From Roseovarius sp. ZX-A-9 (GTDB lineage Bacteria; Pseudomonadota; Alphaproteobacteria; Rhodobacterales; Rhodobacteraceae), in NCBI RefSeq assembly GCF_028369135.1, contig NZ_JAPWHW010000001.1, positions 62,001 to 126,000 of the forward strand: a stretch of 64,000 nucleotides of DNA, given 5' to 3'. Positions 45,062-53,558 of this stretch are shown here, in pieces. Under the pieces are notes generated by a model, which worked only from the letters and a program-made list of their open reading frames with translations, did no database searches and had not been told where the DNA came from. Each line of letters begins with the position of its first letter. The first letter of the stretch is position 1. A program made the position numbers and the translations under genes.

Positions 45062-45949
45062 TTATGTCATCTCGGACATCTTGCGGGCCTCGTTCAGCAG
45101 GGCTTGCAATGTTGGCGTGTGCGGCTCTCGGTAGGGGGCGACCAGTCCCACACTGGGGCTGAGGGTCGTTCCCGACAACTTTATAAGTTGTAACCCTTTG
45201 CCTTTGATCAGGAAATTGGCAATTTCTGACGGCACGATCGTCAGCCATTCACCACCTTCGACATTTGCCACCAGCGCGATCAGGGAATCGGATTCGATCC
45301 AGGCATCCGGCGTCGCACCGGCCTCGCGAAAGTGCCTGTTGATGATCCGCCTGTTCTGGTTTTCGGGCGTCAGCAGGCCCAGTTTCTCGCCTTCCAGTTC
45401 CTTCCAGCCGACGGCGGTCCGGCCTGCGAATTTCGAATGCTCGCTGCATACCAGCATGAAATGTTCGCGGTAGAGCGGCTCCGTGCTGACCCGCCCGGTC
45501 GGTTCGTTGTCGAGATAGGTAATCCCCGCATCGACATCGAGATTCTCCAACATTGATAAAATCTCGATGGACGTGCGCGACAACAGCGTGAAGCGAACCT
45601 TGGGGTGAATCTTGCTGAATCGCGCACTCAGTCCGGCGGCCCATGTCAGCGCGGTCGGGATGACAGCAATCCGCAATTGCCCGGCTAGCCCGTGTTTCTT
45701 TGCGCGCATCTCGTCCTTGAGCTGGCGCGCATCACCGACAATGCGGCGCGCCCAGACCAGCGCGCTTTGCCCCTCGGGTGTCAGCCCGCCATAGCGCGAC
45801 CCGCGAAACACCAGTTTGACACCCAACTGCCCCTCAAGCTGTTTGATCCCGGTGGACAGCGTCGGCTGCGTTATCCCAAGACTCTGGGCGGCCTGACCAA
45901 AATGTTGGGTTTTGGCGAGGGCGATAAACATGTTCAATTTGTCGAGCAT
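45062..45949 (-). CDS. LysR family transcriptional regulator, likely of formate dehydrogenase
   Basis: A 295-residue LysR protein. The helix-turn-helix is LNMFIALAKTQHFGQAAQSLG with TQPTLSTGIKQLE, near residues 4-40. The effector domain (LRIAVIPTALTW, DAGITYLDNEPTGRV, EGGEWLTIVPSE) resembles the CbbR/FdsR-type regulators seen upstream of fds operons. It precedes fdsG on the same strand by 109 bases. ATG at 45949 begins the conserved domain; the frame is open 45 codons further up. Confidence 0.9.
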   Translation of the reverse strand: MLDKLNMFIALAKTQHFGQAAQSLGITQPTLSTGIKQLEGQLGVKLVFRGSRYGGLTPEGQSALVWARRIVGDARQLKDEMRAKKHGLAGQLRIAVIPTALTWAAGLSARFSKIHPKVRFTLLSRTSIEILSMLENLDVDAGITYLDNEPTGRVSTEPLYREHFMLVCSEHSKFAGRTAVGWKELEGEKLGLLTPENQNRRIINRHFREAGATPDAWIESDSLIALVANVEGGEWLTIVPSEIANFLIKGKGLQLIKLSGTTLSPSVGLVAPYREPHTPTLQALLNEARKMSEMT

Positions 45950-46470
45950 CCGAATAAATTGTCGAATTATCTGGATTTTACAATCGGGAAATGCGCGCTT
46001 GATAGCGATCATCAATCGGCAGGCCCGGGCGGGCGCCCCCATACCCTCTGCGGTGGATGGTTGGCGCAGCAGGACAACGCCCAAGACAGCCAGCAGAACA
46101 GACCCGAAATTGTCTCAAGTGTTTTGTTGAAAGGGCCTTTGCCCCCCATCGCTGCACCTTCACACAAAATTTTTTTCACATCTCTTGACAGCATTTTGGC
46201 CCATTCCCAGATGATCGGATGCGGGATGCCGATTGAGGGTCCCGGAGATGATGGCAAAAGCGAAATGCGTGTGCAGATGTGCAGCACATAAGCCCCGTCA
46301 TCGACCGCAAGGTGCACAGAGTGGCCTTGCGCATCGAGATACGTGGTCGCCGCGCGGCTTCGCGCCGAACAATCTCCGAACCTCCATCCCTTCGTGACAT
46401 TCCCGCCTGGTACTTGTCCGCGCCTCGGCACGGACACCTGTTGTGGTGAAACCTGGAAAAGGAGGAAACA
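45950..46470. other. 521-base divergent promoter region of the fds regulator and the Hsp20 cluster
   Basis: No frame here has a ribosome binding site or a recognisable product; long frames are shadows of neighbours. TTGACA at 46185-46190 resembles a -35 box but has only a poor -10 partner at 17 bases. CCTCC at 46381-46385 is complementary to the GGAGG ribosome binding site of the first Hsp20 gene (46461-46465). The region probably carries the heat-induced promoter for the cluster. Confidence 0.45.
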
Positions 46471-46911
46471 ATGCTGAACTATGGACAGTCCGGGAGTCAG
46501 TGGGACCCGTTCGCCGAGCTGCGCCAACTGCAAACGCAGATGAACCGCATGTTCGATACCGGGTCGCGCAGCAGCCGGGACGGCAGCTGGCCACCCGTCA
46601 ACATGTGGCTGGGCGATGACAGCGTCGTCGTCACCGCCGAGATGCCCGGCGTCGCGCAGGACGATATCGACCTGACAGTGCGCGACAACATGGTGACCAT
46701 CGCAGGCAAGCGCAATCCGCCCACCGATGACGAAACCGCCGCGCGGCACCGCCGCGAACGCCCCTTGGGTGAATTTTCGCGCTCGATCCGCCTGCCGCTG
46801 CGTGTCGACCCCGACAAGGTCGAAGCGCGGGCAAGAAACGGCGTGTTGGAGATCGAGATGGGCCGCCCGGATGAGGAACGCCCCCGCAAGATCAAGGTCA
46901 AGTCAAACTGA
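46471..46911 (+). CDS. Hsp20/alpha-crystallin small heat-shock protein (first of three)
   Basis: A 146-residue cytoplasmic chaperone. The N-terminus is short (MLNYGQSGSQWDPF), then RQLQTQMNRMF. The alpha-crystallin domain runs from about residue 37 to 140 with DSVVVTAEMPGV, the VTIAGKR strand and FSRSIRLPLRVDPDKVEARARNGVLEIEM. The conserved A-x-x-x-x-G-V-L is present. Small Hsps hold unfolding proteins for later refolding. AAAGGAGG precedes the ATG. First gene of the rightward cluster that extends to htpX. Confidence 0.93.
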   Translation: MLNYGQSGSQWDPFAELRQLQTQMNRMFDTGSRSSRDGSWPPVNMWLGDDSVVVTAEMPGVAQDDIDLTVRDNMVTIAGKRNPPTDDETAARHRRERPLGEFSRSIRLPLRVDPDKVEARARNGVLEIEMGRPDEERPRKIKVKSN

Positions 46912-46938
46912 GGAGTGGAGAGGAAAGGAGCAAAGACC

Positions 46939-47340
46939 ATGGCGAACGAGTTGAAGAAAACCGGCGGCGAGGTCGCCCGGACCGACAGCGAAGACACGCG
47001 CGAAACCGGCCCCTTCTACCGCCCCGCGACTGATATCATCGAGAAGGGCGACAAGGTGACGGTGGTCATCGACATGCCGGGCGTTGCCCCCGAGAACGTC
47101 GATGTCTCGGTCGAGAACCGGTCGCTGACTGTGCGCGGCACGATCGACACGCCAGCACCCGAGGGCTACCGGCGCGTCTATGCCGAATACGCGCCCGGCA
47201 CCTTCGAGCGGGCCTTCAGCCTGCCCGAGACGATTGATGCCGACAAGATCGACGCCACCCTTCGCGACGGCGTGCTGACACTCTCGCTCAGCAAGAGCGA
47301 AGCCGCCAAACCGAAACAGATCGAGGTCAAGGCCGCCTAA
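46939..47340 (+). CDS. Hsp20/alpha-crystallin small heat-shock protein (second of three)
   Basis: A 133-residue chaperone whose alpha-crystallin domain fills about residues 25-130: VTVVIDMPGVAPENVDVS, LTVRGTID and FERAFSLPETIDADKIDATLRDGVLTLSL. It differs clearly from the first copy, so the three are not recent duplicates. AAAGGAGCAAAG before 46939 sets the start. It lies 27 bases after the first gene. Confidence 0.92.
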   Translation: MANELKKTGGEVARTDSEDTRETGPFYRPATDIIEKGDKVTVVIDMPGVAPENVDVSVENRSLTVRGTIDTPAPEGYRRVYAEYAPGTFERAFSLPETIDADKIDATLRDGVLTLSLSKSEAAKPKQIEVKAA

Positions 47341-47377
47341 GCGGCCCTGTCCAGCCAAAGAAAAGGAGGAAAGAGCA

Positions 47378-47863
47378 ATGGTATTCACGGATCTCATCCC
47401 CTGGGGCCGGGACCGCAACCGCGTCCCCGAGCGCAGAAGCGAAGACACCAACCCCATGGTGTCGCTCCAGCGCGATCTGAACCGCGTGTTCGAGGATTTC
47501 TGGAGGCATTTCGACGACCCGTTCGGGGCCACCCTGGCGGCGGGCACGCCACGCACCGACATCTCGGAAACCGATGATGCAATGCTGGTGTCGGTGGACC
47601 TGCCCGGCCTTGATGACAAGGATATCGAGGTAAACGTCACCGACGACATGCTGACGATCCGCGGTGAACGTGAGGAAAAAACCGACGCTGGCGGTTTCAG
47701 TTCGCAATCGCGGCGCAGCTTCCACCGGATGATCCCGGTGCCGCCGGGCGTTGACCCCGAGAAATCCGAGGCCGAATTCAAGCGCGGCGTGCTGACCGTG
47801 ACGCTGCCCAAGACCGAAGAGGCCAAGGCGCGGGTGAAACGGATCAGCGTGAAATCCGCCTGA
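47378..47863 (+). CDS. Hsp20/alpha-crystallin small heat-shock protein (third of three)
   Basis: A 161-residue chaperone with the longest N-terminal arm (MVFTDLIPWGRDRNRVP, then LQRDLNRVFEDFWRHFDDPF). Its alpha-crystallin domain (AMLVSVDLPGLDDKDIEV, LTIRGEREEK, SFHRMIPVPPGVDPE) ends in KRGVLTVTLPKTEE. It resembles IbpA-type class A proteins. AAAAGGAGGAAAGAGCA precedes the start, a strong ribosome binding site. Confidence 0.93.
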   Translation: MVFTDLIPWGRDRNRVPERRSEDTNPMVSLQRDLNRVFEDFWRHFDDPFGATLAAGTPRTDISETDDAMLVSVDLPGLDDKDIEVNVTDDMLTIRGEREEKTDAGGFSSQSRRSFHRMIPVPPGVDPEKSEAEFKRGVLTVTLPKTEEAKARVKRISVKSA

Positions 47864-47872
47864 CCCTTGGGG

Positions 47873-47890
47873 GCGGGCCTCGCGGCCCGC
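47873..47890 (+). terminator. GC-rich hairpin after the third Hsp20 gene
   Basis: GCGGGCC and GGCCCGC form a seven-base stem around TCGC, starting nine bases after the stop and enclosed by a wider GGGGG/CCCCC pairing. No T run follows, so it may only attenuate transcription into the next genes. Confidence 0.45.
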
Positions 47891-47961
47891 TCCAAACCCC
47901 CGAGGGCCGGACAAAGCCCTCATTCAGCAGGTTGATTTGCAGCGAAGGAGGTATGTTTGAG

Positions 47962-48462
47962 ATGAGAGGACACAACCGCCCCCCCTTCCGGCCGAAACTG
48001 CCCGGCACCGATATGACTTCGGCAGATGCGCCCACGGCGATCATCTATCGCCCGTCGCGCAGCCCGGTGCAGTCAGGGCCGCGCCCACGCCACTGGATCT
48101 TGGAATTCGAGCCCGCGGCACCGTCCGAAATCGAGCCGCTCATGGGCTGGACCGCGACCCGCGATCCCTATCGGCCGATCCGGCTCAGCTTTCCCGATTG
48201 CGAAAGCGCCATCAAGTATGCCGAGCGGAATGACTGGAACTACGTCATTCGCGGCGAGGGGAAAAGCAAGCCCCGCATGTCACTGGAACCAAAGTCTCGC
48301 CCGCATGAAAGCCTTGATGAACCACAGCCGCGCGGCAGGGTCGAGGCGAGGATGAACCACGCAGAGAGTGGCGACATCGACCCGGTGGAACTGGCATCGC
48401 TTGCGTCCTTCCCAGCCTCCGATCCTCCGGTCTGGACCGGAACCACCCTGGCAGCACGCTGA
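47962..48462 (+). CDS. NDUFS4-like protein (complex I accessory subunit family) with extended C-terminus
   Basis: A 166-residue protein. The middle, about residues 25-105, is the ETC_C1/NDUFS4 domain: AIIYRPSRSPVQSGPRPRHW, then LEFEP, PLMGWT and LSFPDCESAIKYAERN. Normal bacterial NDUFS4 proteins end soon after this domain; here about 65 residues follow, closing in DPVELASLASFPASDPPVWTG, a motif I have seen at the ends of small stress-related proteins. AAGGAGG lies ten bases before the ATG at 47962, favouring it over ATG 47953. It sits inside a chaperone/protease cluster, which is unexpected for a respiratory subunit. Confidence 0.85.
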   Translation: MRGHNRPPFRPKLPGTDMTSADAPTAIIYRPSRSPVQSGPRPRHWILEFEPAAPSEIEPLMGWTATRDPYRPIRLSFPDCESAIKYAERNDWNYVIRGEGKSKPRMSLEPKSRPHESLDEPQPRGRVEARMNHAESGDIDPVELASLASFPASDPPVWTGTTLAAR

Positions 48463-48641
48463 ATTCGGGCGCGCGGGATCCGGCCCGACCGGGCACGCAC
48501 CTGAGACACAGGCCGAAATCGGTGGCGCCGCCCTGAACACAAGGGGGCAGGATAGAGGCGTGTTTTGTCGCAAATCGCTCACCTGATCGGCTAGCGCCGC
48601 GGCGCTGGCCACCATTTGAATTGGTTTCAAGGAAACGGAAG

Positions 48642-50042
48642 ATGACTACTCTTGTTTCTAGACTTGGCTACACATTGGTGGCGCTTTGCGTTTTTTCGCT
48701 GACATTCGCAGCGCCAGCCGCCTCACAGACGGCCGATCACCCGCTCTTTCGCAATGACAATGGGTTGCCCACACTGGCACCGCTTCTGGCCGAAGTCACA
48801 CCGGCTGTGGTCAACATCTCTGTCGAAAGCCGCCAGACGGCCGAGATGAACCCGCTATTCAACGATCCCTTCTTCCGGCGGTTCTTTGACATGCCGCCGA
48901 TGCCGCAAACCCCCATGCCGCGCCAGATGAGCGCGGGGTCCGGCGTGATCGTCGATGCGAACAAGGGCTATGTGCTGACCAACCATCACGTGATCGAGAA
49001 CGGCGACCGGATCGTTGTCACCCTCAAGGATCGTCGCCAGTTCGATGCAGAGCTCATCGGCAGTGACCCCGGAACCGATATCGCGCTGTTGCGCATCAAG
49101 GCGCGGGACATTTCGGCGCTGGAGCTTGGCGACAGCGACCAGTTGCTCGTCGGAGACTACGTGCTCGCCATCGGCAACCCGTTCGGCCTCGGGCAGACCG
49201 TGACCTCTGGCATCGTCAGCGCCTTGGGGCGCAGCGGAATCAATGTCGATGGCTACGAGGATTTCATCCAGACCGATGCGTCGATCAACCCCGGCAATTC
49301 GGGCGGGGCACTGATCACGCTTGACGGGCGGCTCATCGGCATCAACACCGCGATCATCGCACCATCCGGCGGCAACGTGGGGATAGGCTTTTCCGTGCCG
49401 TCCAACATGGCACAGGCCGTCATGGACCAGCTTATCGAGTTTGGCGAAGTGCGCAGGGGGCGCCTTGGCGTGATGATACAGGATTTCACCCCCGATCTGG
49501 CTGACGCATTGGGCGTCAAGGCCGGCGATGGCGCAGTGGTCACGCAAGTCGAACCCGACAGCGCCGCCGAGGAGGCCGGATTGGAACCGGGCGATCTGAT
49601 CGTCGCCGTCGATGGCCGCCCCGTCGCGGGCTCCGCCGATCTGCGCAGCCAGATCGGGCTGAAACGGATCGGCAGCAAGGTCAAGTTGCAGGTCAAACGT
49701 GACGGCAAGGAGCTGACGCTGAAGGCAACCCTGCGCGAGGGCGGGCTGATCGCCGCGAGGACGGGCGAGCGCGCATTCGACCGCCTCTCGGGGGCAGAGC
49801 TGCGCGATCTGCAACCAGCCGATCCGTACTACGGCACCCTGTCCGGCGTCGTGGTTGCGCGGCTCGACCCCGGCAGCCGGGCGGCGCGTTCAGGGTTGGA
49901 AGCAGGCGACATCATCCTGGCCGTCAACCGCGTACCGATATCCTCGGTTGCGGACCTGCGTCAGCAACTGGCGGGTGTTGATGGGGCGCTTGCCCTGACC
50001 GTTCAACGTGGCTCCGCGCGCCTCTTTCTGGTCATGCGCTGA
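48642..50042 (+). CDS. DegP/HtrA-type periplasmic serine protease
   Basis: A 466-residue protein with a signal peptide (TLVALCVFSLTFAAPAASQ, cleavage near residue 29). The protease domain has the full triad: H116 in TNHHV, D146 in GTDIALL and S220 in NPGNSGGAL. Two PDZ domains follow (about residues 265-350 and 385-465) with GVMIQDF, GLEPGDLIVAVDGRPV and LEAGDIILAVNRVPI. HtrA proteins degrade or refold misfolded periplasmic proteins. The start at 48642 has AAGGAA eight bases upstream and avoids a charged extension. It belongs to the chaperone/protease cluster. Confidence 0.94.
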   Translation: MTTLVSRLGYTLVALCVFSLTFAAPAASQTADHPLFRNDNGLPTLAPLLAEVTPAVVNISVESRQTAEMNPLFNDPFFRRFFDMPPMPQTPMPRQMSAGSGVIVDANKGYVLTNHHVIENGDRIVVTLKDRRQFDAELIGSDPGTDIALLRIKARDISALELGDSDQLLVGDYVLAIGNPFGLGQTVTSGIVSALGRSGINVDGYEDFIQTDASINPGNSGGALITLDGRLIGINTAIIAPSGGNVGIGFSVPSNMAQAVMDQLIEFGEVRRGRLGVMIQDFTPDLADALGVKAGDGAVVTQVEPDSAAEEAGLEPGDLIVAVDGRPVAGSADLRSQIGLKRIGSKVKLQVKRDGKELTLKATLREGGLIAARTGERAFDRLSGAELRDLQPADPYYGTLSGVVVARLDPGSRAARSGLEAGDIILAVNRVPISSVADLRQQLAGVDGALALTVQRGSARLFLVMR

Positions 50043-50080
50043 TTGCCGCGCCTTTCTGGAGATTGAAAAAGGAGGGTCAT

Positions 50081-50797
50081 ATGTCCGAGATTCAGAAAAA
50101 TACGGAATGCAAAACTGACACCGAAGACATCGTCGAGGAGAGTACGAAATCCGGGACGGTGCCGGAAGCGACCGATGACATCGCCGGTGACAACACCACG
50201 AAATCCGAGGCGGCGCCGGAGGTGACCGATGACAGCCCCGACGACACCACAAAACCCGACGCGGCGCCGGAAGCGACCGGTGACACCACGGACAGCGGGG
50301 CGGAGCCCGAGGCCGAGGAAAAGAATCTGGAGGCCGAAGTCGCGCGCCTGACCGACAAGTGGAAGCGCGCGCTCGCAGACGCGGAAAACGCGCGCAAGGC
50401 TGCGAGAGCTTCTCATGCCGAAGGGCGCGAGAACGGCATCGCGGTAGCGGTGGCGGCCATCGCGCCTGCCCTTGACGCGCTGTCGCTCGGGATTGAAGCC
50501 GCGCGGAACAGCCCGGATGCAGAAGACCCAAGAATCGTTTCGCATCTGGAAGGTCTGTGCAGTATTCGGTCCGCCTTCGAGACCGGCCTCAAGGCCCTCG
50601 GCGTCAGAACAATCGCGCCCGAGAATACGCCCTTCGATCCGGCCCTGCACGAGGCGTTACAGATGCAGGAAACCGACCAGACCAAACCCGGTCAGGTCAT
50701 GGTTCTGCATCGTCCCGGCTTTGCCATCGGTCAGCGCCTGATCCGGCCCGCCCAAGTGACCGTGAGTGCGGCGCCTAGCAAAGCGGAGGAGGAATAA
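50081..50797 (+). CDS. grpE: GrpE-like nucleotide-exchange factor with acidic repeat N-terminus
   Basis: A 238-residue protein. Residues about 10-85 are acidic and threonine-rich with an imperfect repeat, roughly EATDD...TTKSEAAPE three times. A coiled-coil follows (EAEVARLTDKWKRALADAENARKAAR). The GrpE head is near residues 150-235: FDPALHEALQM, GQVMVLHRPGFAIGQRLIRPAQVTV. GrpE releases ADP from DnaK. No dnaK is nearby and this is probably a second GrpE of the cell. GGAGG before 50081 sets the start. It lies 38 bases after htrA and 3 bases before htpX. Confidence 0.88.
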   Translation: MSEIQKNTECKTDTEDIVEESTKSGTVPEATDDIAGDNTTKSEAAPEVTDDSPDDTTKPDAAPEATGDTTDSGAEPEAEEKNLEAEVARLTDKWKRALADAENARKAARASHAEGRENGIAVAVAAIAPALDALSLGIEAARNSPDAEDPRIVSHLEGLCSIRSAFETGLKALGVRTIAPENTPFDPALHEALQMQETDQTKPGQVMVLHRPGFAIGQRLIRPAQVTVSAAPSKAEEE

Positions 50798-50800
50798 GCA

Positions 50801-51718
50801 ATGCTGCGCCTTGGCCTCTATCTTGCTGCGAACCTCGCCATCCTTGCCGTTCTGTCGGTTTCGTTCCGGCTGCTCGGCATCGACAGCCTGCTGCAAGCCA
50901 ACGGCGTCGATCTCGATCTGACGGCGCTGCTGGTTTTCTCCGCGGCGATCGGTTTTGTCGGGTCGCTGACCTCGCTTTTCCTGTCAAAGACGATGGCGAA
51001 GGCCGCGATGGGCGTTCGGGTCATCACCGCGCCGCGCACGCCAAGCGAACGCTGGCTGGTCGATACGGTCCATGCCCAAGCCGACCGCGCGGGGATCGGA
51101 CGGCCCGAGGTCGGCATCTTCGATCATCCCTCACCCAACGCTTTCGCAACCGGGTGGAACCGCGACGAAGCCCTGATCGCCGTCAGCACCGGCCTTCTGC
51201 AGCATATGGCGCGCGGCGAGGTTGAGGCCGTCCTGGCGCATGAGGTCAGCCATGCGGCCAATGGGGACATGGTCACGCTTGCGCTGATCCAGGGCGTCGT
51301 GAACACCTTCGTCATCTTCCTGTCCCGCCTCGTGGGGCTGCTCTTTGACCGTCTGGTACTGCGGATCGAACGCGGTTTCGGCCCCGGTTTCTGGTTCGTG
51401 TCCCTGATCGCTGAACTGGTCCTTGGCGTGCTGGCGATGGCCATTGTCATGTGGTTCTCGCGCTGGCGGGAATACCGGGCCGATGCGGGCGGAGCCAGGC
51501 TGGCCGGGCGAGGCAACATGATCGCCGCGCTGGAACGGTTGAAACAGGCCCGCAACGCGCCGCCCCTGCCCGAAGAAATGCGCGCCTTCGCGATCACCGC
51601 CGGGCGGGTGCAGGCCCTGTTTGCCAGCCATCCCCCGCTTGAGAGCAGGATTGCCAAGCTCAAGGCAGGCAACACCCAGCCACGCGTGTCGCAAAGGAAG
51701 GTCGGCTTCATTTCGTAA
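50801..51718 (+). CDS. htpX: HtpX-type M48 membrane metalloprotease
   Basis: A 305-residue inner-membrane zinc protease. Two membrane helices lie at about residues 5-27 and 41-62. The zinc site is HEVSH at 147-151, with the third ligand E224 in EYRAD. Two more helices (about 160-180 and 196-220) sit between. HtpX cleaves damaged membrane proteins together with FtsH. Its start follows the grpE-like stop by only a few bases, so both are in one operon. Last gene of the cluster. Confidence 0.93.
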   Translation: MLRLGLYLAANLAILAVLSVSFRLLGIDSLLQANGVDLDLTALLVFSAAIGFVGSLTSLFLSKTMAKAAMGVRVITAPRTPSERWLVDTVHAQADRAGIGRPEVGIFDHPSPNAFATGWNRDEALIAVSTGLLQHMARGEVEAVLAHEVSHAANGDMVTLALIQGVVNTFVIFLSRLVGLLFDRLVLRIERGFGPGFWFVSLIAELVLGVLAMAIVMWFSRWREYRADAGGARLAGRGNMIAALERLKQARNAPPLPEEMRAFAITAGRVQALFASHPPLESRIAKLKAGNTQPRVSQRKVGFIS

Positions 51719-51827
51719 AGCAGCGCACTGACCGCCCTGCCGATCAGACGCGCGCCGCCGGGAGACGATACTGCCGTTTGTTTTCTGCCCCTCACCTTTC
51801 TAAAGTGAAGGCCGGAAGAGGAACAAA

Positions 51828-53558
51828 ATGCGCAGGCCGCTGGCGATACTTATTTTTCTGGGCTTCACGGCGCTGCTCTCGGGCGGGGCGTGGTGGCTGG
51901 GCTATCGCACCAGTCTGGCGCAGGTCGCAGAGCGCGGCGCGGCGGATCTGCGGCTGGCGGCGGATCGGTTGGAGGGGCAACTGGCGCGTTACCGGCTGAT
52001 CGCCGTGCGGCTGGCGGATCACCCCGATGTGGTCGCCCTGTCCCGCACTGGCGACGCGGCGGGCATCGAGGCGCTGTTTCTCAGCGTGGCCGATCAAAGC
52101 GGCGCGTTCGAGGTGGCCTATTTCGCCGCGGACGGCCAAGTCATCGCAACATCCAGCGACGGCCCGCCCATGGCCTATTCCGGCGACGAGACAGCCTTTG
52201 CCCGCGCCATGACCGGCGCGCTCGGCATGGATCACGGGCGCGCAGCGGATCAAAGAACACGCACCTTCACCTTCATGGCGCCGGTCTTTGCGGACAAGCA
52301 CCCGCAGGGCGCGATCGCGGTGCGCGTGGACATGGAGGCGGTCGAGGAAAGCGATTGGCGCGGTGCGCCGCAGGTCGTCTTCTTTACCGATGCTCAGAAC
52401 CAGATTTTCGTCACCAACCGCTCCGAGCTGCTGTTTCGCAGCGTCAACACCGGCAACCCGGCCGATTTCGCGCCGGAACGGATACGGCAGATCGGCGGAA
52501 TCGCCATCTGGACCAGCGCCGCAGGCCCCTACGTGCCGCGTCGCGCGGTCTACCGCGAACAGCCCCTGCCGGTGATCGCGCTGACCGGGCGCGCGCTGAT
52601 CAGCACCGCCCCGGCAGAGCGCATCGCGGGGCTTCAGGCCGCATTGGTCGCGGCACTCTGTCTGGCCTTCGGGGCGGTGCTGTTTCTGCTGCTGGAACGC
52701 CGCCGCGCGCTGGCGCTGGCCAATGCCGGGCTGGAACAGCGGGTGATGCGCCGCACGGCCGCACTGGCCACGGCCAACACCGCACTGCGCCACGAGGTGA
52801 GCGACCGCAAGGAGGCCGAGCACGCACTGCGCCGCGCGCAGGCCGATCTGGTGCAGGCGGCCAAGCTCAGCGCGCTGGGGCAGATGTCGGCGGGCATCAG
52901 CCACGAGTTGAACCAGCCGCTGATGGCGATCCGGTCATTTTCCGAGAACGCCACGCTGTTTCTCGACAAAGGGCGCACCGACGACGCGCGCGCCAATCTG
53001 GGCCGGATCGCGGACCTGTCGCGGCGCATGGCGCGGATCATCAAGAACCTGCGCGCCTTCGCCCGGCAAGAGAACGAACCGATGACAGAGGTGGATATCG
53101 TCGCGGTGATCGCCTCGGTGCTGGAGATGACCGAAAGCCGGTTGCGCGCCGAAGACGTCACGCTGGAATGGACGCCGCCAGCGGACATTCCCCTTGTTCA
53201 CGGCGGCGAAGTGCGCCTGCAACAGGTGGTCCTGAACCTCGTGACCAATGCGCTCGACGCCATGGCAGGCCGCGCGGACAAGCGGCTGGAAATCACGGTC
53301 ATCCCCGGCGCAGATCATGTCGAGGTCACGCTGCGCGATACCGGCCCCGGCCTTGATGACCCCGGCAAGATCTTTGATCCCTTCTACACCACCAAACAGG
53401 TCGGCGCGTCAGAAGAAGGAATGGGGCTGGGCCTGTCGATCTCCTACGGGCTGGTCCAGAGCTTTGGCGGCGCGATCCACGGGCGCAACCACCCGGACGG
53501 CGGCGCAATCTTTACCGTCCGACTGACCGCCACACCGGCCGCAGAGGTGGCAGCATGA
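51828..53558 (+). CDS. dctB: C4-dicarboxylate sensor histidine kinase DctB
   Basis: A 576-residue membrane kinase. Two membrane helices (about residues 5-25 and 258-285) enclose a periplasmic double-PAS sensor. The H-box GISHELNQPLMAIRSF near residue 362 contains the phosphorylated histidine. N-box (NLVTNALDAM) and G-boxes (DTGPGL, GMGLGLSIS) form the ATPase. The HELNQPL form is typical of DctB. The stop overlaps the dctD start (ATGA). It is expected to sense C4-dicarboxylates or a related acid and to control the TRAP genes just downstream. Confidence 0.92.
   Translation: MRRPLAILIFLGFTALLSGGAWWLGYRTSLAQVAERGAADLRLAADRLEGQLARYRLIAVRLADHPDVVALSRTGDAAGIEALFLSVADQSGAFEVAYFAADGQVIATSSDGPPMAYSGDETAFARAMTGALGMDHGRAADQRTRTFTFMAPVFADKHPQGAIAVRVDMEAVEESDWRGAPQVVFFTDAQNQIFVTNRSELLFRSVNTGNPADFAPERIRQIGGIAIWTSAAGPYVPRRAVYREQPLPVIALTGRALISTAPAERIAGLQAALVAALCLAFGAVLFLLLERRRALALANAGLEQRVMRRTAALATANTALRHEVSDRKEAEHALRRAQADLVQAAKLSALGQMSAGISHELNQPLMAIRSFSENATLFLDKGRTDDARANLGRIADLSRRMARIIKNLRAFARQENEPMTEVDIVAVIASVLEMTESRLRAEDVTLEWTPPADIPLVHGGEVRLQQVVLNLVTNALDAMAGRADKRLEITVIPGADHVEVTLRDTGPGLDDPGKIFDPFYTTKQVGASEEGMGLGLSISYGLVQSFGGAIHGRNHPDGGAIFTVRLTATPAAEVAA

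Follow-up and report, generated by a model that had tools for sequence, protein, structure and literature searches.

Seven protein quality-control genes in Roseovarius

In the alphaproteobacterium Roseovarius sp. ZX-A-9, positions 46471–51718 of a 64,000-nucleotide stretch of contig NZ_JAPWHW010000001.1 (the whole stretch is called the window here) hold seven adjacent open reading frames (ORFs) on the plus strand, encoding three Hsp20 proteins, a protein related to the complex I subunit NDUFS4 (hereafter NDUS4L), HtrA, GrpE, and HtpX. A first-pass annotation of the window had read these genes as a compact protein quality-control island, and the ORF coordinates, the gene order, and the Pfam matches, every one of them above cut-off (HSP20 three times, NDUS4, trypsin/PDZ, GrpE, and M48), agree with its gene list. 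NCBIfam models for the Do family and HtpX also scored above cut-off, while those for GrpE and Hsp20 scored below. The genes, each given from its probable start codon, are as follows:

46471 to 46911, plus strand: Hsp20 number 1, 146 amino acids (PF00011)
46939 to 47340, plus strand: Hsp20 number 2, 133 amino acids (PF00011)
47378 to 47863, plus strand: Hsp20 number 3, 161 amino acids (PF00011)
47962 to 48462, plus strand: NDUS4L, 166 amino acids (PF04800), with a GHNRPP start motif, an NDUFS4 domain, a disordered linker, and a SFPASDPP end motif
48642 to 50042, plus strand: HtrA of the Do family, 466 amino acids (Pfam and NCBIfam), with two PDZ domains, and a signal peptide and His/Asp/Ser motifs seen by eye
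50081 to 50797, plus strand: a second copy of GrpE, 238 amino acids (Pfam), sharing 28% identity with the host's canonical GrpE
50801 to 51718, plus strand: HtpX, 305 amino acids (Pfam and NCBIfam), with an HEVSH zinc motif seen by eye

The probable starts of NDUS4L (47962), grpE (50081), and htrA (48642, an ATG shared with Roseovarius halotolerans) are shifted relative to the longest frames. Intergenic gaps measure, in order, 27, 37, 98, 179, 38, and 3 bp, and are thus mostly short, as first described. Strong ribosome binding sites had been claimed for the whole row; judged by eye, GGAGG or AGGAG precedes six of the seven genes, and the htrA site is weaker. Terminator-like sites between 45800 and 52200 occur at chance level (6 against 6.1 expected).

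Elsewhere in the host genome (62 contigs, 4.69 Mb) we found a canonical NDUFS4 (contig C62), another GrpE (contig C15), and further Hsp20s (two) and M48 proteins (three). Identity to these copies is low not only for the island GrpE but also for HtpX (24–27%) and the Hsp20s (24–31%), with HtrA paralogs left out of the comparison. The island GrpE has an acidic, repeat-like N terminus (window 50081–50320) and is longer than the GrpE frames of four related islands (L059, L064, L075, and L141; 195–209 codons).

Relatives carry a larger island that includes clpG

Gene orders in relatives were rebuilt by phmmer, which was given the seven proteins of the window together with 20 references taken from relatives. 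Eight of these references (ClpG, FtsH, HdeD, YfdX, KefB, omega, and two small proteins) were checked with Pfam; the remainder comprise a hypothetical protein with no convincing Pfam match, a major facilitator superfamily protein named by eye, and others named from record annotation. A scan of named-species genomes with NDUS4L yielded 149 loci, 80 of which were kept. The closest lineage consists of seven: R. halotolerans (L059), R. azorensis (L069), R. spongiae (L075), Thalassorhabdomicrobium (L064), Salipiger aestuarii (L060), Palleronia (L062), and UBA6141 (L063). Two loci were excluded, one on a contig without the hsp20 trio (L061) and one from the same species as L060 (L044).

All seven close relatives share the order divergent ftsH, three hsp20 genes, clpG, hdeD, and NDUS4L, with yfdX following NDUS4L in six of them. 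HtpX occurs in six of the seven (as a fragment in L060), GrpE in three and also in the more distant loci L080 and L141, and HtrA of the window type in L059 alone; the HtrA of L064 is a different one, 69% identical to that of the window and sited after the third hsp20. Contig ends could conceal genes in L060 and L062. Among the more distant loci, NDUS4L directly follows the third hsp20 in L141, and lies ahead of ftsH in L080, where clpG comes after htpX. The recurrence of this order behind a conserved promoter and leader supports the proposal that the genes form a single island.

At the DNA level, the window aligns with these relatives almost continuously from 46064 through the promoter, leader, and hsp20 trio to 47858–47925, with the long match starting only at 46182–46221 in L062, L063, and L075. 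The alignment then skips to 47945, just ahead of NDUS4L, and the clpG and hdeD genes of the relatives fall in the skip. In L062 the skipped segment is ~3.5 kb long (by blastn, the window up to 47925 corresponds to L062 up to 5435, and the window from 47945 to L062 from 8977). Three features mark apparent gene losses:

46064 to 46111, minus strand: remnant of the 5′ end of a divergent ftsH (tblastn and DNA alignment)
47926 to 47944, no strand: interval of ~20 bp with the clpG-hdeD deletion junction (blastn against L062)
48560 to 48616, plus strand: remnant of the 5′ end of yfdX, with an in-frame stop (DNA match to the yfdX start of L064)

The ftsH remnant has no start codon and an in-frame stop upstream, and at 46064, where its homology stops, lies the left edge of the island. 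It matches FtsH of L075 and L063 at 62–67% over 12–16 amino acids in tblastn, and gives longer but weaker matches to L064, L069, L062, and L060; in DNA, 55 of 71 aligned letters are identical to L064, a score of 25 where 1000 shuffles reached at most 8. For yfdX, 47 of 63 letters agree with the start of the L064 gene (score 31, at most 10 in 1000 shuffles). The yfdX remnant's protein match on its own is weak (E 0.04, the best among the matches listed), and at a common GGCCACC it is joined to the stretch ahead of htrA.

The first-pass annotation had named FtsH, YfdX, and KefB among the missing genes, and references for these and for ClpG, HdeD, and TrxC indeed found no match in the window (psiE was not searched for). 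In the host genome, a ClpG query gave only 40–50% matches, in frames of 887, 794, and 383 amino acids that correspond by size to ClpB, ClpA, and ClpX, and a YfdX query gave none. Trimming is also seen elsewhere. Genome G117 holds a separate trimmed copy, in which only the leader, the hsp20 trio, and, after the trio, a 56-bp clpG remnant are left, and the island on plasmid CP021115 (L141) is clpG-less. Between hsp20 and NDUS4L the plasmid sequence gives no alignment with the window, so its loss of clpG looks like a separate event. Collinearity and remnants together support well the view that the locus is the shrunken descendant of a larger, clpG-bearing alphaproteobacterial island. The proposal of a minimal alphaproteobacterial version thus appears to have had the direction wrong: the ftsH and yfdX remnants and the sharp clpG-hdeD gap point to a larger island that shrank.

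A second non-canonical FtsH of 621 amino acids is present in host contig C2 (L157:6020–10547, equal to C2:12519–17046). It is nearer to island FtsH than to canonical FtsH and lies near a DnaJ-like match, with acetate kinase-like and enoyl reductase-like genes recognised by eye as neighbours, perhaps as part of another stress cluster. We rejected it as a displaced island gene: it is 58–61% identical to the island FtsH copies, whereas those of L064, L059, L080, and L142 are 67–90% alike, and it sits in a separate cluster.

Upstream, the island is flanked by fdhD, genes of the fdsA-B-G type, and a LysR gene, which read on the minus strand; its downstream neighbours are a two-component pair and a TRAP transporter. 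None of ten flanking proteins (fdhD-fds-LysR and dct-type) is a mobile-element protein. The longest LysR frame starts within the ftsH remnant, but the true start of LysR is probably 45949, with the helix-turn-helix placed at residue 2.

The retained genes look constrained

Ratios of nonsynonymous to synonymous substitution rates (dN/dS, NG86) between the window and L064 or L059 are 0.09–0.25 for all seven genes, about the same as between L059 and L064 (0.10–0.30). With dS at 0.46–1.5 the single figures are rough, and the HtrA pair with L064 carries little weight, as the two are different gene copies. Comparison with the distant L141 gives higher values for hsp20 (0.31–0.41). These ratios argue for constraint on the seven retained genes, although dN/dS does not tell whether it acted before or after the deletions.

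A candidate promoter and leader RNA precede the hsp20 genes

Two features lie ahead of the first hsp20:

46184 to 46212, plus strand: sigma32 (RpoH)-like promoter, CTTGACA-N15-CCCAGAT, with constant spacing in relatives
46219 to 46470, plus strand: conserved leader of ~250 nt (alignment), with a core at 46219–46406 that is predicted to fold

The sequence fits a sigma32 promoter. TTGACA and TTCCCA are 19 bases apart, start to start, in all eight aligned loci and also in G117, and the strict pattern has no other match on either strand of the 64 kb. A sigma70 scan of 45800–52200 found no promoter.

Across the eight loci the leader has a mean identity of 78%, and its RNAalifold consensus contains 65 pairs, seven of them with double change. 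The structure pairs 94.6% of cells against 33–44% when slid, a control that is partly circular as the structure was derived from the same sequences. The covariation score of 0.163 exceeds that of shuffled alignments (0.135, reached by 1 of 500), as do the number of cells with double changes (11 against 4.8, reached by 0 of 500) and of pairs with double change (7 against 3.8, reached by 10 of 500); further pair types are no more numerous than in shuffles (reached by 337 of 500). Folding z-scores of the eight copies are mixed: −4.5, −3.8, −3.7, −2.9, −2.0, −1.4 (window), −1.15, and −0.6. The leader is probably structured. In all eight copies the hsp20 ribosome binding site is predicted to be paired at 37 °C (probability 0.53–1.0), in six of them mainly with a CU-rich stretch ~80 nt upstream. 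The predicted pairing of GAGGA changes little between 25 and 60 °C and is not opened by 60 °C; in the model it rises in L069 and L063.

ROSE-type RNA thermometers belong to hsp20 genes. The window leader resembles them in preceding such a gene and in the predicted pairing of the ribosome binding site, and differs from them in its length, its lack of predicted melting by 60 °C, and its lack of an Rfam match: a search of 45900–52000 up to an E value of 5 returned neither ROSE nor any other Rfam family. A covariance model of the leader, run on 50 sources, scored 154–204 bits in nine, each time ahead of the hsp20 trio of this lineage; eight of the nine built the model, and the ninth is from the same species as one of these. 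The match ahead of the CP021115 hsp20 trio is weak (22 bits), and three more weak matches (17–21 bits) are probably due to chance. Among 394 genomes of the family the model matched two, the host and G117. A short ORF was also considered as the cause of leader conservation. A GTG frame (VVA.RLR...) is present in seven of the eight copies and absent from L062; we did not take it for a gene, as by eye it ends after 22–47 codons in differing ways and every copy has short frames.

NDUS4L is a recurrent partner of such islands

NDUS4L scores 74.8 bits against PF04800, for which the curated cut-off is 31.9. Its structural model has a mean predicted local distance difference test (pLDDT) value of 66, with core blocks at 77–88 and the linker below 50. 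The best Foldseek match is chain Q of 8qby (E 1.9e-07; TM-score 0.42 by query and 0.65 by target), and its sequence and fold matches in the PDB are NDUFS4 chains of complex I, that of Paracoccus being the best. By domain score and modelled fold, NDUS4L belongs with NDUFS4 and shares its core domain. It is 41% identical over 81 amino acids to the host's canonical NDUFS4, but its start and end motifs and its disordered linker are not seen in canonical copies.

A search of 390 genomes of the order with NDUS4L found a match in all, as canonical NDUFS4 would predict. Island-type copies (E 1.3e-33 or better, the next best being 1e-18) were limited to the host and 12 of the 389 other genomes; none of the 11 congeners in this draw has one, while a congener from outside the draw (G394) does. 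Of the 80 named loci, 22 hold island-type NDUS4L (score of at least 90), and every one of the 22 has at least two of Hsp20, Clp, FtsH, YfdX, HdeD, and GrpE nearby, compared with 1 of the 58 other loci (Fisher 8e-19, a merely indicative value, as the cut was chosen after the scores were known and several of the 22, L066–L073, are near-copies). NDUS4L is a recurrent partner of such islands and a regular member in their alphaproteobacterial lineages; GrpE, the other gene initially put forward as an extra of this locus, belongs to some of them. Among the papers listed by searches of open-licence PMC text (titles and the beginnings of abstracts), none describes an NDUFS4-like gene in such heat-resistance islands.

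The end motif FPASDPP occurs in 17 of the 22 island-type loci (not in L076–L080) and in one of the 58 others (L082), and a [RKQ]GHNRP start in 16 of 22 and none of 58. In the window, a search for FPASDPP placed the motif as follows:

48379 to 48441, plus strand: C-terminal motif of NDUS4L, DPVELASLASFPASDPPVWTG

SFPASDPP was rejected as a tag exclusive to islands, given that unrelated small proteins also end with it. The slightly longer ESFPASDPP appears portable, standing at the NDUS4L end, near the start of an Azospirillum island GrpE, and at the ends of unrelated small alphaproteobacterial proteins (window 48379–48441, L144:965, L167, L171, and L172). In L066–L073 (about 14.8–17.3 kb) the same island holds a second pair of Hsp20 and NDUFS4-domain genes, and behind this pair L067 and L068 have DnaJ and a MerR-like gene. 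Another island lineage has a conserved hypothetical gene (~206–234 amino acids; L142:10379–10999 and L140:10310–11014) directly ahead of NDUS4L, with no convincing Pfam match.

NDUS4L on plasmids and in other classes

A plasmid search with NDUS4L matched 98 records, 22 of them at 80% cover. In eight of 11 plasmid stretches inspected (L140, L141, L142, and L162–L166), NDUS4L lies alongside genes of the type found in the transmissible locus of stress tolerance (tLST); one of these, L162, is nearly unannotated, with a single yfdX call and DNA matches to clpG and ftsH stretches. In L144 it accompanies GrpE-DnaK-ClpB-Hsp20, and L139 and L143 have cut-short copies with few such genes near. Among the 40 matches listed, ten are gammaproteobacterial; four of these carry NDUS4L full-length in a single piece (H19–H22), and in six it is split or short (H17, H18, and H23–H26). 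Complex I of gammaproteobacteria, Acinetobacter included, is not known to have an NDUFS4; among 14 control genomes, PF04800 was found only in Caulobacter.

The congener G394 carries a full island of another lineage (L173), 3.4 kb of which is 96.9% identical to plasmids of Acinetobacter ursingii and A. lwoffii (L140 and L165). The shared segment comprises hdeD, mscS, a hypothetical gene, NDUS4L, and an end of kefB; if the G394 contig is not a contaminant (2% contamination is listed for this genome), DNA would have passed between classes recently. The conjugative plasmid CP021115 of Aestuarium zhoushanense bears ftsH, three hsp20 genes, NDUS4L, yfdX, htrA, grpE, and htpX, and ClpG has no match anywhere on it. 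It therefore shares with the window the order hsp20 trio, NDUS4L, HtrA, GrpE, and HtpX, and differs in retaining ftsH and yfdX and in adding DnaJ, MerR-like, omega, and CBS-domain genes.

Relation to known heat-resistance loci

Section 11 of PMC8290217 defines the core of the tLST, or locus of heat resistance (LHR), by the genes dna-hsp20-clpG. The host genome has no ClpG (dna was not searched for), and with clpG missing the locus is not a tLST proper. Likeness to such loci had been noted from the first, and it stands, as relatives and a conjugative plasmid repeat the gene order. PMC8290217, a review, describes the tLST, LHR, and transmissible locus for protein quality control (TLPQC) with Hsp20 genes, proteases of the HtpX (M48) and DegP types, xenologs of core genes, and loss and gain of genes, all of which have counterparts here; judged by their low identity to the host's other copies, the island GrpE, HtpX, and Hsp20s are such xenologs. 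Such loci also spread horizontally and have mobile elements at their flanks; here the distribution of island-type NDUS4L in the order is patchy, and none of the ten flanking proteins is of mobile-element type. The locus differs in lacking matches to clpG, ftsH, yfdX, hdeD, kefB, and trxC and in having NDUS4L and GrpE. In the main text of PMC8290217, NADH, complex I, and the electron transport chain do not occur, and GrpE occurs only in the references. The review already names alphaproteobacterial variants that have mostly the protein homeostasis part and extra small heat shock genes, which lessens the novelty of the locus as such; as far as searches of the open-licence literature show, NDUS4L, the leader, and the remnants are new.

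A probable trimmed island and its possible function

Taken together, the locus is very probably what remains of a trimmed alphaproteobacterial heat-resistance island of the tLST/LHR kind. Extra genes in all seven close relatives, sharp stops in homology, the ftsH and yfdX remnants, the lack of ClpG and YfdX elsewhere in the genome, the trimmed G117 copy with its clpG remnant, the clpG-less plasmid island, and low dN/dS all point this way. The ancestor would have had ftsH, then, divergently, three hsp20 genes, clpG, hdeD, NDUS4L, yfdX, htrA, grpE, and htpX, and deletions would have taken most of ftsH, clpG-hdeD, and yfdX. That the island was instead assembled from single genes, with clpG, hdeD, yfdX, and ftsH added in other lineages, is very hard to maintain: NDUS4L, HtrA, GrpE, and HtpX do recur in varied orders and the third hsp20 of L141 adjoins NDUS4L without clpG, but broken starts of ftsH and yfdX lie where relatives hold whole genes, G117 retains a clpG start, and the 1000-shuffle test speaks against chance matches. 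Also improbable, though less so, is that the island is dying, its last genes in the course of being lost and already without a role. The presence of two remnants and three deletions within 5.7 kb would fit such an end, whereas the seven genes are open, catalytic motifs can be read in HtrA and HtpX, dN/dS is well below 1 as in relatives, and promoter and leader are kept.

Several observations count against trimming followed by retention. The whole island may be decaying slowly, and the window leader alone folds just slightly better than shuffles. The htrA-htpX segment, at 84–85% DNA identity to plasmid L141 and 81–82% to L059, is as near to the one as to the other, while the hsp20 part is far nearer to L064 and L059, so the island may be a mosaic whose hsp20-NDUS4L neighbourhood stems partly from recombination. 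Trees give supports of 65 and 70 at the nodes beside the window, so that neither its placement nor the order of losses is firm. Two congener stretches (L153, 11.9 kb, and L154, 19.9 kb) have no dct genes beside fds and thus offer no empty site for comparison.

A role in heat survival can be inferred. The remaining operon would be heat-inducible through the sigma32-like promoter and the long folded leader, and the retained parts would require no ATP motor of their own. The three Hsp20 holding chaperones would catch unfolding proteins, leaving refolding and the dissolving of aggregates to host DnaK and ClpB (a ClpB-sized frame is present in the genome; DnaK was not searched for). The extra GrpE could accelerate nucleotide exchange, and HtrA and HtpX, judged by family, would clear damaged periplasmic and membrane proteins. 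More speculatively, NDUS4L might use its NDUFS4 fold to bind an alphaproteobacterial partner, in the simplest case complex I, which it would guard or tether under stress.

Two tentative accounts of NDUS4L have about equal standing. It might be a stress spare for complex I that replaces canonical NDUFS4 and holds the NADH module in heat or oxidation, as its best sequence and fold match, the Paracoccus subunit, and the canonical NDUFS4 in the same genome would suggest; its decay in the listed gammaproteobacterial records likewise favours an alphaproteobacterial partner. The long disordered tail and the start motif, absent from canonical NDUFS4, fit this account poorly. It could equally be an adaptor on the chaperone side, which brings holding chaperones or GrpE to clients, docking by the NDUFS4 fold and tethering by the SFPASDPP tail. 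Transfer together with chaperone genes favours this role, and NDUS4L is linked to Hsp20 and to both kinds of disaggregase, ClpG and ClpB-DnaK-GrpE; the same motif lies near the N terminus of the Azospirillum GrpE, and the gene was carried into Acinetobacter, whose complex I is not known to have an NDUFS4. Yet the six split or short copies among those ten gammaproteobacterial records look as if the protein were useless there, and unrelated small proteins have the tail motif at their ends too. A broader scheme, which we regard as rather unlikely, would have alphaproteobacterial islands bear a neofunctional NDUFS4 whose portable tail links complex I to holding chaperones, place their hsp20 operons under a new class of long-leader RNA, and keep leader and holding chaperones longest when islands are trimmed.

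The gene remnants offer a view of how a transferable heat-resistance island erodes in a genome and which of its parts persist. Such erosion is seen in two genomes, that of the window and G117, both of which have lost the disaggregase central to these islands. The locus also supplies a specific candidate for a leader RNA, and an NDUFS4-type protein joins the parts list of these islands, including plasmid DNA that may have been shared recently between an alphaproteobacterium and Acinetobacter.

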